DNA of 64,000 nt from Timaviella obliquedivisa GSE-PSE-MK23-08B. GTDB taxonomy: Bacteria; Cyanobacteriota; Cyanobacteriia; Elainellales; Elainellaceae. The notes under the pieces are model-generated. The model ran no database searches and was not told the origin of the DNA. It saw only the letters and a list, made by a program, of their open reading frames with translations. The stretch is from contig JAHHII010000003.1 of the NCBI GenBank assembly GCA_019358855.1, positions 248,001 to 312,000 on the forward strand, in the 5' to 3' direction. The translations under genes were made by a program, and so were the position numbers. This document shows, in pieces, positions 26,264 through 36,764 of this stretch (positions are counted from its first letter, which is position 1; each line of letters starts with the position of its first letter).

Positions 26264-29626
<3,363 letters not shown>

Positions 29627-29738: not shown

Positions 29739-32700
29739 TTATCGCTTTAAGACTTGATTGACTCGTGCTAATAACTCCGGCATAGGTAAAGACCCAGGAA
29801 TAACTTCAGTCCGATTTCCCCAAACTTGCTCAACCGTACTCTGCGCAAACGGATCAAGCTCTGCTCGGTGCGTCTGATAGTTCCAAAACAAGATTGGCGG
29901 CTTTGCTTCTAAAGGAGTCAGCGATCGCTCCATCTCCACTAACTGCCCCTGGGCTACCGCCGGATCACCGCACAGCAACAGCAAATCTATACTCTGATTC
30001 TGTAAACTTTGGATGACATCCTGCCAAGAAGCCGCGATCGCACTCTGAAACCCAGCAATTTGTAAATATTGCATTAATGCTCGTACACTCTGAGGCGCAG
30101 GCGAATGCTCTAATCCAGGAGTGGGTAAGTCAAAAATTAAAATTTGAGGTGTCCAAGCGATTCCAACCGCCATCTGCATCACTTGCAGCAATGCAGACAC
30201 CTCCGGGCTACCCACCTCAATGGGCTGATTGGGGGTTGAAGCCAAACAGGGAAACACCGCTAACCCTAGAATTTGATTGGCTGCTTCGGTCATCTGTGCT
30301 GTCAACGTGACCACTGGTAACGCCGACAAAAAGGGCGATCGGCTGAACCGCTCTAAATAGGACTGTGGATCGCTACAAGCTCCATCCAGCAACACAATAT
30401 CTGGCTTCCACACCCGCGCCAACAAATCTGCCTGCTCGAGATCATCCACCTCTAGAATTCGGCATTGATGGGGGTGCAGCAAACGGGTCAAATCCGCAGA
30501 AATCAGTCCAGGGGTTGTCTGACTTTCATATAAATGTAATATGGTTAAGCTCAGTTGAATCGGCAGTGGCTCTGAAAGCAAAGGTTTAACGACCTGTTCC
30601 AGGCAACGCTGGAGGGAATCTGCCTGAACGGGTAGAGATAGAAATGAATCTGCTCCATTTTGGTAAGACTGCTTCTGATCAATTCGCATTGCCGTCGCCA
30701 CCACAGGAATCTGACGGGTTTCTTCGTCTGCTTTCAGCAGCGTTAACACATCCCATCCTGAAAGCATAGGCAGCACAGGGTTTAGAAAAACTACACAGGG
30801 CTGAAGGCGGCGAATCTTCTCTAACGCCTCAGTCCCAGAACGGGCGATCGCCACCCGGTAGCCCAACCCAACGACCTGATGAGTCAATTCATCTAATAAA
30901 TGAGGCGTTGCCTCGACAATCATCACTAGCCGATTGTGCGCCGTCGTCGAAACCGTTCCCGAATTCATCCCCAAATCTATGGGCGACGGTTGCCTTGTTC
31001 CTGTTCCTATCTCTGCTCCAATTTGCTGCGGCGCAGGCGGACTCGGTGGCAACAGCAACGTAAACTCGCTGCCCCTTCCCTCAACTGACGTAAAGGTAAC
31101 ATCGCCCCCATGTAAACGCGCCAGCTTTTGGGTTAATACGAGTCCTAATCCCGTTCCTTTAAATTGCCGAATGAGCGGATTTTCTAACTGTTGAAACTTT
31201 TGAAAAATTAGATGCTGCTTGTCTGCTGGAATGCCAATTCCCTGATCCCAAACCGTGAAAGCTAGCCAACCTTCCCAAGCTTCTACCTTAAGCCCCATTT
31301 TGCCATCTGCTGCTGTAAATTTTAATGCGTTCGACAGGAGATTTGCCAGCATTTGCCGCAACCGCAAATCATCTGCCACCAGTGACTCTAGCCCCGGTTG
31401 AATTTCTAGATTGAACTGAGTTTTCCCCTCAGATGCTCCCACTAAAACTTCAGCTTCTACCTCTTCTTCCGCTGCCTGCAACTGCTGCACTAATTGAAAA
31501 GCTTGCTGACAAACTGTCTTAAGGTTTAAAGGCTCTGGCATCAGTTCCATCTGCCCTGTCTCAATCCGAGTTAAATCTAGAATATTATTTACGATTGAAA
31601 TTAAATGCCGCCCACTGCGGTGAATAAGCAGGGCATACCGCGATTGCCGCTCATTCAGCTTGCCCAGTGCCTGATCTTTTAATAGGCTCGACAAGCCTAA
31701 TACTGCTGTTAAGGGCGTTTTTAGTTCATGGCTGATACAGGATAAAAACTCATCTTTTAACCGATTAAGCTGCACCAAATCTGCATTTTTTGCCGCCAGT
31801 TCTTTGACAATTTGCTGCTGATCGGTGGTATCTTGAGCCAGAACTAACCAAAGGCTATCGGCTTGGCTGAGGGCGACCTGACCTGCGGCAAAGCGCCCAT
31901 TGGCATCGGCAGAAAAGTCTAAGGTTGCTAGCTTAAATTCGGAAGCTGAACCCATGGGGATTTTGACAAATTGCCAAACCCGATCTTGTCCATCTTTCAT
32001 GGGGCAGATACAGACGCAAGTGTCGGGTTCTGTTCCAAGACAAGAGCCGACCGATCGCCCTGTCCTATCTAATTCTCTCTCATCTAAAGTGATTCCATTC
32101 AACGCTGTTCCACTTAATGGCTCCAAATTTTCCCAAATGCTGGGATAAGTATTATCGGCAGGCTCGGCAGTGTTTCCGGTTGAGGTGTTACTTGTTGAAG
32201 TGTTATTTACCGTTGCCTCTTCTAAAATCTGCCCTGCCTGCTGACTAATCTGCTCAGGATCGCGCAATTGACCAATCTGCTGCCGCCAGGCCAAATTTTG
32301 AGCCACCATCCGTCCACTTGCCGTTTGTAGCATGAGGGGAATCGGCAATCGTTCCAGCAATTCCACCATTGGGTTGATGGATAGAGCGATGGGCAGCGGG
32401 GCGACTCGCCTTTGGTTTAAGGGAGCGTGCGAATTCTCGGCGACACAGGTCATAAACTGTAAAAGCTGAAGGCGATCGAGAATGCCTACATATCGCCCCA
32501 ACCCGTCAACTAAAGCCCACTGTCGCCGCTCAATTTCGGAAAAATGAGGTCGAAAATCTTCTAGGCTCCATTGCAGCGATAGAGGGGTTAAATCTTCGAG
32601 CAAGGGCTGCCGATCTTGTCCCAAGGATCTACAAATCTGCTGAATCGTCTGAGCGGCTAGAGCGTCATCGACCCAGCTTTTTGTTAAAGATAAGTAAGGA

Positions 32701-32867
32701 ATTAATCGGCTTAACCGTAATATTCCCAAGGGCGCTTGCTGTTCATTTAACACGATCGCCTGATCGCATCCCATTTGCCCTAGCCGTTGCCAAACGCTTG
32801 CTAAATCATCCGTTTCAATGCAGGTGGGCACAGACAGGATAAATTCCTTGAGAGACACAGTTTCCAT
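29739..32867 (-). CDS. CBS-PAS hybrid histidine kinase with three receiver-like domains
   Basis: The 1042-residue product (from ATG 32867; a TTG at 32939 is less likely) starts with a CBS pair (about 5-140) and a PAS-like sensor part (about 170-350). The kinase core has the H-box SCISHELKTPLTAVLG, N-box LLSNALKF and G-boxes DQGIGIP and GTGLGLVL. Three receiver-like domains follow. In the first the phosphoacceptor Asp is Asn (VVFLNPVLPML) and the conserved Lys is missing; the second keeps an Asp (IVLLDGACSDP); the third is degenerate (LLLLCGDPAVA). No membrane helix is seen, so it is cytoplasmic. It diverges from kaiA with a 180-bp gap, which suggests but does not prove a clock link. Confidence 0.88.
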   Translation of the reverse strand: METVSLKEFILSVPTCIETDDLASVWQRLGQMGCDQAIVLNEQQAPLGILRLSRLIPYLSLTKSWVDDALAAQTIQQICRSLGQDRQPLLEDLTPLSLQWSLEDFRPHFSEIERRQWALVDGLGRYVGILDRLQLLQFMTCVAENSHAPLNQRRVAPLPIALSINPMVELLERLPIPLMLQTASGRMVAQNLAWRQQIGQLRDPEQISQQAGQILEEATVNNTSTSNTSTGNTAEPADNTYPSIWENLEPLSGTALNGITLDERELDRTGRSVGSCLGTEPDTCVCICPMKDGQDRVWQFVKIPMGSASEFKLATLDFSADANGRFAAGQVALSQADSLWLVLAQDTTDQQQIVKELAAKNADLVQLNRLKDEFLSCISHELKTPLTAVLGLSSLLKDQALGKLNERQSRYALLIHRSGRHLISIVNNILDLTRIETGQMELMPEPLNLKTVCQQAFQLVQQLQAAEEEVEAEVLVGASEGKTQFNLEIQPGLESLVADDLRLRQMLANLLSNALKFTAADGKMGLKVEAWEGWLAFTVWDQGIGIPADKQHLIFQKFQQLENPLIRQFKGTGLGLVLTQKLARLHGGDVTFTSVEGRGSEFTLLLPPSPPAPQQIGAEIGTGTRQPSPIDLGMNSGTVSTTAHNRLVMIVEATPHLLDELTHQVVGLGYRVAIARSGTEALEKIRRLQPCVVFLNPVLPMLSGWDVLTLLKADEETRQIPVVATAMRIDQKQSYQNGADSFLSLPVQADSLQRCLEQVVKPLLSEPLPIQLSLTILHLYESQTTPGLISADLTRLLHPHQCRILEVDDLEQADLLARVWKPDIVLLDGACSDPQSYLERFSRSPFLSALPVVTLTAQMTEAANQILGLAVFPCLASTPNQPIEVGSPEVSALLQVMQMAVGIAWTPQILIFDLPTPGLEHSPAPQSVRALMQYLQIAGFQSAIAASWQDVIQSLQNQSIDLLLLCGDPAVAQGQLVEMERSLTPLEAKPPILFWNYQTHRAELDPFAQSTVEQVWGNRTEVIPGSLPMPELLARVNQVLKR

Positions 32868-33049
32868 TCCCAAATTTCCGACCTGTGATTGGATACAGCA
32901 ACTCCATTGATTATCGCGGTATCTCAAAGCAAGCGACAAGTTTTCAAGTATGATTAATGTTAATTATTTTGATGATTGTTGACTTTTGTATATTATTAAT
33001 TATTGTGGCTTGACAGCTATAGCAAGTTTGATGCCTGTGGCAAATAGTC

Positions 33050-33964
33050 GTGAAGACTAGCCTAATAGAGAACCAACAACTTTTACTCCTGAGTACCTTG
33101 TCTTCCTCTCTCTCTGTTTGTGGACTTTATTCGTCTGATACGCTGATCCAGACTATCTCTCAAATTTTGGGAGAAGTCGCTCTACCTGAAGCTGTAGCCG
33201 TCACCTATAGACTCAACGGATTTACTTCTGAAGAGAGTTTTTTACAGTTTGTTCAACAAAAAAATTGTTCTATCGATTGTCTCATTTTAGAAGAGCGACC
33301 TAAGTTACAAAGCGTTTTGGATCAACTGAGTCAGCAATCTATCTTTTTCCCAACTGTGTTTTTAAAGGGTGCAAGTATCCCAGCAGTAGTTGCCCACAAT
33401 CATGAGGACTGGTCTTATCATGCTGCAACTATTTGTTTATTGCCCAATCAATTGAACCAGATTGGCTTTGTTATTGATCAAGCGATCGCCCAGTTCATTC
33501 AGCTTTCCCCGGTTCGTCAGCCTGTCGTTACCACTCGCATTCCAGCAACACCCCTCAGATCTCAGCAGCTTCGTTTATCTGAAAAGCTGAAAGAGCGATT
33601 GGGGTATTTAGGGGTTTATTACAAACGCGATCCACAAAACTTTCTGCGCCACATGAGTCAGCCCGATCGCGAAGAGCTACTGCGGCACCTAAAAGCAGAG
33701 TATTGCGAAATTGTTTTGACTTACTTTTCAGATCCGTCAGCGCTCAATGCTCGGCTCGACAATTTTGTGAATGTCGCTTTCTTCGCCGATGTTTCTGTGG
33801 CTCAAGTCGTTGAAGTGCATATGAACTTAATGGATGAATTTTCTAAGCAACTTAAGCTAGAAGGAAGAAACGACGATATTTTGCAAGACTATCGGTTGAC
33901 TTTAATTGAGGCGATCGCCCACCTCTGCGAAATGTATCGCCGCTCTATTCCCCGCGAGTCTTAG
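33050..33964 (+). CDS. kaiA: Circadian clock protein KaiA
   Basis: KaiA binds the C-terminal tail of KaiC and stimulates its autophosphorylation. The 304-residue product is full length. The N-terminal part (about 20-140) is the pseudo-receiver, variable as usual. The C-terminal domain (about 185-300) is strongly conserved: KERLGYLGVYYKRDP, SYFS-type LTYFSDPSALNARLD, NVAFFADVSVAQVVEVHM and AHLCEMYRRSIPRES. It uses a GTG start at 33050; an ATG at 33031 is in frame but closes at a stop before reaching useful length. The unusual feature is that an unrelated gene separates it from kaiB. Confidence 0.96.
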   Translation: MKTSLIENQQLLLLSTLSSSLSVCGLYSSDTLIQTISQILGEVALPEAVAVTYRLNGFTSEESFLQFVQQKNCSIDCLILEERPKLQSVLDQLSQQSIFFPTVFLKGASIPAVVAHNHEDWSYHAATICLLPNQLNQIGFVIDQAIAQFIQLSPVRQPVVTTRIPATPLRSQQLRLSEKLKERLGYLGVYYKRDPQNFLRHMSQPDREELLRHLKAEYCEIVLTYFSDPSALNARLDNFVNVAFFADVSVAQVVEVHMNLMDEFSKQLKLEGRNDDILQDYRLTLIEAIAHLCEMYRRSIPRES

Positions 33965-34056
33965 TCTCCTGTCTAAATAACCCGTTTAACACCCCATACA
34001 AAAGCCTGTAAAGTTCTATGATGAAACGACAATTTAACCCTGATGGGGAAGTAACC

Positions 34057-34701
34057 ATGAAACTCAAAGAATGGGCGATCGCCAGCTTTTCGGCAATGGC
34101 GGCGATCGTCATATCTGTTTCCTCAGCACTAGCGGAAACCGTGGAAGTTAACGTAGATATTCTCAATGTGAGAACAGGACCTGGCACAAATTACTCAGTT
34201 TTGACCCAGTTTGATAGAGGCGTTCGCGCCAACCGCATTAAGCAAGAAGGCAACTGGGCATACATTGTTACAGGGCGCGTTGAAGGCTGGGTTTTTGCCC
34301 CCTATGTTAGAGTCGTTGCAGATTCTAGCACCTCAGACCCCTCCCTAGAGCCAAGCTACGAAGCCAATGGGAGAATTGAAAACGCCAGGCATAAGGGAAC
34401 AGGTAAGGCAGAAGTCAGGGTCATTGCAGATAGCGCAATTGTAAAAATTGATGCTCTAGGCGAAAATATACAACCCTTTTCGGTCACCTACTATGGCGTA
34501 ATCACTAGCAACGCCAATAATAAAATAAGCCTGAAAGTCAATGGGTTTAAGTCTTTGCTAACTAATGAGCGAGTTGGGACAAATGGAAATGGATCATGTC
34601 AGCTAGAAGTTGATCCGTCTAAAAGGCTCCTTTCTGCTATCTGTCAGGCTCCAGACTTTGATCACGGCAGAACAGTTTTCACCAGAATAGCACCCCAGTA
34701 A
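34057..34701 (+). CDS. Exported SH3b-domain protein between kaiA and kaiB
   Basis: The 214-residue product starts MKLKEWAIASFSAMAAIVIS with a cleavage-like SALAETVEV, so it is exported. Residues about 25-90 are a bacterial SH3 domain (VDILNVRTGPGTNYSVLTQF, GNWAYIVTGRVEGWVFAPY), which often binds cell-wall peptides. The C-terminal 120 residues match nothing I recognise and contain two Cys (SCQLEV, ICQAPD) that could form a disulphide. GGGGA lies before ATG 34057; an ATG at 34018 is further upstream. It is on the same strand as the kai genes with about 90- and 110-bp gaps, so cotranscription is possible but the link to the clock is unknown. Confidence 0.85.
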   Translation: MKLKEWAIASFSAMAAIVISVSSALAETVEVNVDILNVRTGPGTNYSVLTQFDRGVRANRIKQEGNWAYIVTGRVEGWVFAPYVRVVADSSTSDPSLEPSYEANGRIENARHKGTGKAEVRVIADSAIVKIDALGENIQPFSVTYYGVITSNANNKISLKVNGFKSLLTNERVGTNGNGSCQLEVDPSKRLLSAICQAPDFDHGRTVFTRIAPQ

Positions 34702-34814: not shown

Positions 34815-35138
34815 ATGAGTCCCCTCAAGAAAACATACATCTTAAAGCTCTACGTTGCTGGGAATACTCCTAATTCCATACGCGCATTGCAAACTCTCAA
34901 CAATATTTTAGAGAAAGAATTTCAAGGAGTTTATGCCCTTAAAGTGATTGACGTTCTCAAAAATCCTCAGCTTGCTGAAGAAGATAAAATTCTTGCTACA
35001 CCAACTCTCACTAAAATTCTTCCTCTTCCAGTTCGCAAAATCATTGGTGACCTTTCTGATCGAGAGCGCGTTTTAATTGGTTTGGATTTACTCTACGAAG
35101 AACTTCAGGAAGAAGAGGATGCTTCAGAAGTTGATTAG
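34815..35138 (+). CDS. kaiB: Circadian clock protein KaiB
   Basis: KaiB is a fold-switching thioredoxin-like protein that binds the KaiC CI ring and sequesters KaiA, closing the feedback loop. The 107-residue product is near-identical in pattern to known Kai[61 protein letters not shown] and [18 protein letters not shown], with an acidic C-terminus. The gene precedes kaiC by 66 bp, the usual kaiBC operon. Confidence 0.98.
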
Positions 35139-35204: not shown

Positions 35205-36764
35205 ATGACTCTATCTAATCCGTCTTCTTCCGAAAATTCTACCCTCATAGCAGGTGTCCAAAAAATTAGCACCCTGATCGAAGGCTTCGACGACATTAGC
35301 CACGGCGGTTTGCCAATTGGTCGCACTACCCTTGTCAGCGGCACATCAGGTACCGGAAAAACGATGTTTGCCGTGCAGTTTCTTTACTACGGCATTACTC
35401 AGTTTGATGAACCGGGTATCTTTGTCACCTTTGAAGAGTCTCCTGCCGACGTGATTAAAAACGCCTGTAGTTTTGGCTGGGACTTACAAAAATTTGTTGA
35501 TGAAGGCAAACTCTTCATTCTTGATGCTTCCCCTGACCCAGATGGGCAAGACGTGATTGGCAACTTCGACCTCTCTGCACTGATCGAACGGATTCAATAC
35601 GCCATCCGTAAATACAAAGCCCGCCGCGTCTCTATTGATTCGGTTACCGCCGTGTTCCAACAGTACGATGCTGCCTCCGTTGTTCGCCGCGAAATCTTCC
35701 GGCTGGTGGCTCGTCTCAAGCAAGTCGGTGCGACGACGATCATGACGACTGAGCGTGTTGAAGAATACGGCCCCGTTGCTCGCTTTGGCGTTGAAGAATT
35801 TGTGTCTGATAATGTGGTGATTGTCCGCAATGTGCTGGAGGGCGAACGCCGCCGCCGCACCATTGAAATTCTTAAGCTACGCGGCACTACCCACATGAAA
35901 GGCGAATATCCCTTCACGATTACTAAGGATGGGATTAATATCTTTCCGCTGGGCGCTATGCGTCTGACGCAGCGATCGTCTAATACTCGCGTTTCATCGG
36001 GCGTTAAAGTTCTCGACACTATGTGCGGCGGCGGTTTTTTCAAAGACTCTATCATTTTGGCAACGGGCGCGACGGGTACAGGCAAAACCCTGCTGGTGAG
36101 CAAGTTTATCCAAGATGCCTGCCTGAAGGGCGAACGGGCAATTCTGTTTGCTTACGAAGAATCGCGGGCGCAGCTATCACGCAACGCTTACTCGTGGGGC
36201 ACAGACTTTGAAGAATTAGAGCAGAAGGGGTTGCTGAAAATTCTTTGCACTTATCCTGAATCATCAGGCTTGGAAGATCATTTACAGACTATCAAATCTG
36301 AAATTGCTGAGTTTAAACCTGCCAGGATTGCGATCGACTCTCTTTCTGCCTTGGCGCGAGGAGTCAGCAACAACGCTTTTCGGCAGTTCGTAATTGGGGT
36401 GACTGGCTTTGCCAAGCAAGAAGAAATCACGGGCTTCTTTACCAACACGACCGACCAGTTTATGGGATCTAACTCCATCACCAATTCCCATATTTCTACC
36501 ATCACCGATACAATTTTGATGCTGCAATATGTAGAAATTCGGGGTGAAATGGCGCGTGCCATTAACGTGTTTAAGATGCGCGGTTCCTGGCATGATAAAG
36601 GCATTCGGGAATATACCATTAGTGATCAGGGGCCCGAAATTAAAGAGTCCTTCCGCAACTTTGAAGGCATCATTAGCGGTTCGCCTAGCCGGATTGCCGG
36701 AGATGAGAAGAATGAGTTATCTCGGATTGTGCGGGCATTTCAGGAGAAGGCAGAAGAGGATTAG
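35205..36764 (+). CDS. kaiC: Circadian clock ATPase/kinase KaiC
   Basis: KaiC is the hexameric double-ring ATPase whose phosphorylation cycle keeps time. The 519-residue product equals the length of Synechococcus KaiC. CI has Walker A SGTSGTGKTMF and the paired Glu in FVTFEES; CII has ATGATGTGKTLL and FAYEESRAQL. The phosphosites Ser431 and Thr432 are present in SHISTITD, and Thr426 in SITNSH; counting from the C-terminus confirms the numbering. The C-terminal tail (SRIVRAFQEKAEED) is the KaiA-binding A-loop region. A 6-bp hairpin overlaps the stop and may weakly terminate transcription. Confidence 0.98.
   Translation: MTLSNPSSSENSTLIAGVQKISTLIEGFDDISHGGLPIGRTTLVSGTSGTGKTMFAVQFLYYGITQFDEPGIFVTFEESPADVIKNACSFGWDLQKFVDEGKLFILDASPDPDGQDVIGNFDLSALIERIQYAIRKYKARRVSIDSVTAVFQQYDAASVVRREIFRLVARLKQVGATTIMTTERVEEYGPVARFGVEEFVSDNVVIVRNVLEGERRRRTIEILKLRGTTHMKGEYPFTITKDGINIFPLGAMRLTQRSSNTRVSSGVKVLDTMCGGGFFKDSIILATGATGTGKTLLVSKFIQDACLKGERAILFAYEESRAQLSRNAYSWGTDFEELEQKGLLKILCTYPESSGLEDHLQTIKSEIAEFKPARIAIDSLSALARGVSNNAFRQFVIGVTGFAKQEEITGFFTNTTDQFMGSNSITNSHISTITDTILMLQYVEIRGEMARAINVFKMRGSWHDKGIREYTISDQGPEIKESFRNFEGIISGSPSRIAGDEKNELSRIVRAFQEKAEED

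Follow-up and report, generated by a model that had tools for sequence, protein, structure and literature searches.

The kai locus of Timaviella obliquedivisa GSE-PSE-MK23-08B raises the question of what a large histidine kinase encoded back-to-back with kaiA does, and whether it belongs to the Kai clock. We analyzed a window of 64,000 nucleotides (contig JAHHII010000003.1 of assembly GCA_019358855.1, positions 248,001 to 312,000). The kinase and the kai genes were arranged as follows, with positions counted within the window.

29739-32867, minus strand: kaiA-linked hybrid histidine kinase, 1042 amino acids, stop codon included; orthologues align from the ATG
32868-33049, no strand assigned: divergent intergenic region of 182 bp common to the kinase and kaiA
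33050-33964, plus strand: kaiA (KaiA_N and KaiA_C; Pfam PF21714 and PF07688)
34815-35138, plus strand: kaiB (Pfam PF07689)
35205-36764, plus strand: kaiC (Pfam PF06745, two domains)

The coding part of the kinase gene occupies 29742-32867 on the minus strand with the ATG at 32867, as determined by the ORF reading and the orthologue alignment. An alternative TTG start is located 24 codons upstream; the orthologue alignments begin at the ATG. The back-to-back placement with kaiA described in the initial annotation was confirmed as a divergent pair with a gap of 182 bp. A search with an N-terminal query found one copy of the kinase in the Timaviella genome. On the plus strand, kaiA is followed by the gene of a small SH3 protein and then by kaiB and kaiC. 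The SH3 protein (34018-34701, 227 amino acids) combines a bacterial SH3 domain with a likely signal peptide. None of the 79 named loci that cover both kaiA and kaiB yielded a counterpart, and the nearest relative (L114), also without one, has a shorter kaiA-kaiB gap. This gap is 1.6-1.9 kb in three Okeania loci (L155, L142, and L153) and below 400 bp in most named loci. On the other side, an apcE-like phycobilisome core-membrane linker gene with four linker domains (26315-29626, plus strand) converges with the kinase gene at a distance of about 110 bp.

The initial annotation had derived a clock link from the placement beside kaiA and had staked it on conservation of this neighborhood. Such conservation was found. 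A divergent ORF of at least 500 amino acids adjoined kaiA in 64 of 80 loci, and 60 of these ORFs were kinase homologues; the loci had been selected for high KaiA scores, which makes 60/80 a biased estimate of the rate. In the short-KaiA lineages, the kinase was beside kaiA in 17/17 loci (16 genomes of lineage f32, which would be Nostocaceae to judge from the KaiA type, and one of f27). When residues 1-352 were searched against 79 genomes of the class, matches were obtained in 61, nearly all of them adjoining kaiA. The kinase was also matched in 72 of the 79 named loci that cover both kaiA and kaiB, and some of the others were at contig ends. The next gene beyond the kinase fell into 43 clusters among 60 loci. 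Since this gene is not conserved, the pairing of kaiA with the kinase does not reflect a general inertia of gene order.

Co-occurrence with kaiA, an intended check on the clock link, was likewise borne out. The kinase was present in 85 of 116 genomes with kaiA versus 0 of 18 near-complete genomes without kaiA (Fisher p 1.3e-9, ignoring shared ancestry; the 116 genomes are not a random draw, and the counts were pooled by hand from several searches). The absence from all 18 was determined using a profile of the second receiver-like domain, which scores true members above about 50 bits and other receivers at no more than 34 bits. Two genomes (G254 and G273) carried the kinase without kaiA; in each case the assembly is incomplete and the kinase gene is close to the end of a contig. 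Another genome (G123) had neither kaiA, core kaiB, nor the kinase, a co-loss that may be an assembly gap. No kinase was found in the kaiA-containing lineages f2, f5, f12, f17, f20, f31, f36, and f37, and at least 10 lineages with kaiA had no kinase at the kaiA locus. In at least five genomes (G192, G002, G133, G222, and G080), a homologue was present and did not adjoin kaiA. These results indicate that the clock can run without the kinase or without the linkage. In f12, a short ORF, read as ribosomal protein L21, occupies the kinase position beside kaiA, and the KaiA of this lineage presumably resembles that of S. elongatus. A previous report placed rplU next to kaiA (PMC8113500), in agreement with the L21-like ORF at the f12 locus.

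From this distribution we infer, on good grounds, a clock role for the kinase. We hold with moderate confidence that this single-copy hybrid histidine kinase, long kept beside kaiA, is most likely a dedicated input/output kinase of the Kai clock. It could instead be argued that the linkage serves shared transcription only, the kinase being a clock-controlled output gene on the divergent kaiA promoter region whose protein makes no contact with the oscillator. The genes are head-to-head, separated by roughly 90-880 bp in the loci listed, and divergent pairs can be fixed by shared promoters alone. However, this explanation accounts neither for the conserved pseudo-receivers described below nor for the absence of the kinase from near-complete genomes without kaiA, and we regard it as unlikely.

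The initial annotation had described an ORF with CBS, PAS, HisKA, ATPase, and three receiver-like domains, and Pfam, family profiles, and fold models agreed on this order. The account held as stated; it had overlooked defects in the second receiver, a Cys motif, and lineages with a decayed ATPase. The catalytic core consists of two domains.

31554-31757, minus strand: HisKA, residues 371-438 (Pfam), with the phospho-His H380 at 31728-31730
31044-31373, minus strand: HATPase_c, residues 499-608 (Pfam), with N and G boxes intact in the Timaviella kinase

HisKA, HATPase_c, and one Response_reg domain (648-754) were above the Pfam cut-offs in the Timaviella kinase, which thus combines the HisKA phospho-His with the HATPase_c N and G boxes of a histidine kinase core. 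The phospho-His at the H380 position was invariant in 58/58 family members, and the ATP-binding boxes were retained in 46/58, including the Timaviella kinase. In 10/58 members, the ATPase N, G1, and G2 boxes were gone and the phospho-His was retained; these members also had no Asn in the first receiver. As the decayed members fall into f13 and f26, which lie apart on the KaiA tree, the ATPase decayed on at least two separate occasions. An 858-amino-acid orthologue encoded far from kaiA in G192 (L219:1476-4052) has an intact kinase core. The decayed members, whose ORFs are still open at 629-882 amino acids, would suit a protein that is mainly a scaffold or phosphatase, with kinase activity secondary and HisKA dimerization plus pseudo-receiver docking as the conserved role. 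Yet the ATP-binding boxes are kept in most of the family and in the Timaviella kinase itself, and we consider this explanation improbable.

The C-terminal 405 residues, whose receiver structures were to be checked by prediction, gave three complete receiver folds with a mean pLDDT of 87.7.

30576-30935, minus strand: pseudo-receiver 1 (REC1), residues 645-764, Asn696 in place of Asp and Leu745 in place of Lys
30159-30548, minus strand: pseudo-receiver 2 (REC2), residues 774-903, retains Asp828, lacks the acidic pair, and has Cys874 in place of Lys
29742-30146, minus strand: pseudo-receiver 3 (REC3), residues 908-1042, a receiver fold that has lost its active site

A complete phosphoacceptor site (Asp, acidic pair, Thr/Ser, and Lys) was absent from REC1, REC2, and REC3, which are receiver folds without the key catalytic residues and hence pseudo-receivers. 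The protein is therefore a hybrid kinase in layout only. The predicted fold of REC1 was close to solved ordinary receivers (Z about 21, rmsd 1.2 A, 119 residues). The reported replacement of Asp by Asn and loss of Lys in REC1 proved to extend beyond one strain: among 58 members, the phospho-site was Asn in 42 and Asp in 2, and the Lys position was Leu in 45 and Lys in 2. Asn was also present in 17/17 further members from f32 and f27. Since the substitution is kept family-wide, the alignments identify it as a conserved property and not a chance mutation. In the G192 orthologue, REC1 has Ser at the phospho-site and Lys at the Lys position. The REC2 profile matched receivers, and the phospho-site Asp was found in 43/58 members at the end of the predicted strand beta-3; across the family, REC2 had no acidic pair, and Cys occupied the Lys position in 53/58 within the motif VFPCL. 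REC3, called degenerate from the outset, had no usable active site in the 58 members and was assigned as a receiver from its predicted topology alone. An ordinary internal phosphorelay, from H380 to Asp828 of REC2 and on to some partner with an incidental clock link, would make use of the REC2 Asp, but it is very improbable given that REC2 has neither the metal-holding acidic pair nor the Lys and that REC1 carries Asn in most members.

The sensor part precedes the core.

32433-32867, minus strand: CBS pair, residues 1-145 (family profile and predicted fold)
31830-32372, minus strand: PAS-like domain, residues about 166-346 (predicted model; weak Pfam PAS_8)
32004-32042, minus strand: four-Cys motif C276-x7-C284-x-C286-x-C288 within the PAS

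Taken alone, the CBS of the Timaviella kinase was below the Pfam threshold (E 0.19; E 0.015 with residues 1-230 only). A CBS match was obtained in 22/31 family members (best 8e-9), the family profile matched a solved CBS protein at 1e-21, and the predicted N-terminal fold resembled solved CBS pairs (Z 12.9, rmsd 2.7, 126 residues). Together, the family profile and the predicted fold identify a tandem CBS (Bateman) fold. Solved CBS pairs of similar fold bind AMP, ATP, c-di-AMP, or SAM. Since the ligand thus cannot be predicted from sequence or fold, the adenylate sensing proposed in the initial annotation is no more than possible. PAS_8 was matched in 2/31 members, and the PAS assignment comes chiefly from the model, which has a low-confidence loop at 228-260. 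The C-x7-C-x-C-x-C motif was found in about 36/58 members. Of the four Cys, three are present in the f32 members displayed, and some other lineages have none. A universal family trait is ruled out by the three Cys of the short-KaiA lineages and by several lineages with none. A metal or Fe-S site would be compatible with the Cys spacing.

On our preferred reading of a dedicated clock kinase, nucleotide binding would be the task of the CBS pair, and the PAS, which often carries three or four Cys, would sense redox state or a cofactor. Both inputs may jointly set the autokinase or phosphatase activity at H380, where the core would autophosphorylate. With REC1 unable to accept a phosphoryl group and REC2 severely impaired, phosphate would pass from H380 to a separate response regulator and not through an internal relay, and RpaA is the obvious candidate. 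The pseudo-receivers may act as cis-regulators that clamp the core and as docking surfaces, as in CikA and ShkA. The linkage would suggest a Kai protein as a possible docking partner. Where the ATPase has decayed, the protein would keep only its part in dimerization and docking.

A further proposal, which we put forward tentatively and with somewhat less than even confidence, is that the kinase is an unrecognized clock part: an ancestral, kaiA-linked metabolic and redox input kinase whose three pseudo-receivers would dock to Kai proteins. Many lineages would have retained it, some of them as a pseudokinase, and the lineage of the model species S. elongatus would have lost it. The cyanobacterial clock is known mainly from work on S. 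elongatus. If that lineage lost a conserved clock kinase, metabolic or redox input to the clock in most cyanobacteria may have been missed, and there is a real chance that this kinase is a missed clock component. The family also offers a series of naturally occurring pseudo-receivers and pseudokinases, proteins whose mechanisms have been described as unresolved (PMC12632262).

In the literature searched, most subscription papers being outside the search, no description of the kinase or its kaiA linkage was found. The best-scoring named family was HrmK (NCBIfam NF038297), which matched the core and REC1 (residues 345-756) with 286.8 bits, far below the cut-off of 725; neither the N-terminus nor REC2 or REC3 was matched, and identity as HrmK was rejected. 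The core gave a generic match of 109 bits (cut-off 342) to NCBIfam NF006800, a histidine kinase model that we take to be SasA. SasA is also a clock-linked HisKA kinase, but it begins with a KaiB-like domain. No such N-terminal domain was present in the Pfam results for the Timaviella kinase, and identity as SasA was rejected. A 403-amino-acid frame elsewhere in the genome contains a KaiB-like domain and is likely SasA. A second KaiB-like domain, in a 276-amino-acid frame (G000:C8:73882-74121, L245), is distinct from kaiB and from the likely sasA.

The N-terminal domain of KaiA is itself a pseudo-receiver. Its alignment with the REC3 profile was weak (hhalign P 2.5e-4, 107 columns), and REC1 (1.5e-3) and REC2 (0.14) also point to general receiver kinship; special kinship is not evident, and derivation of the pseudo-receivers from the KaiA N-domain was rejected as unproven. 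The CikA and KaiA pseudo-receivers were not among the top structure matches of the receiver models. In CikA, a GAF sensor is combined with a single pseudo-receiver, whereas the Timaviella kinase has a CBS pair, a PAS, and three receivers, a layout that rules out identity as CikA. The S. elongatus locus tags also place CikA (0644) far from kaiA (1218) (PMC3549803), unlike the kinase studied here, which adjoins kaiA. In the hybrid kinase ShkA of Caulobacter, HisKA is clamped by a pseudo-receiver until a second messenger frees it (PMC12632262), and the Timaviella kinase shares this combination of hybrid layout and pseudo-receiver. ShkA is not a clock protein, however, and it retains a working receiver that takes phosphate (PMC12632262), in contrast to the Timaviella kinase, in which no receiver site is complete. 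CikA is a histidine kinase that ends in a non-phosphorylatable receiver; this domain has an inhibitory effect on the kinase and is a binding site for KaiB and quinones (PMC12632262). The parallel with CikA drawn in the initial annotation is sound in this respect, as both kinases have C-terminal receiver folds without the key residues. The best reading of our analysis is that the kinase would resemble CikA in employing its pseudo-receivers as regulatory or docking domains, yet is not CikA.
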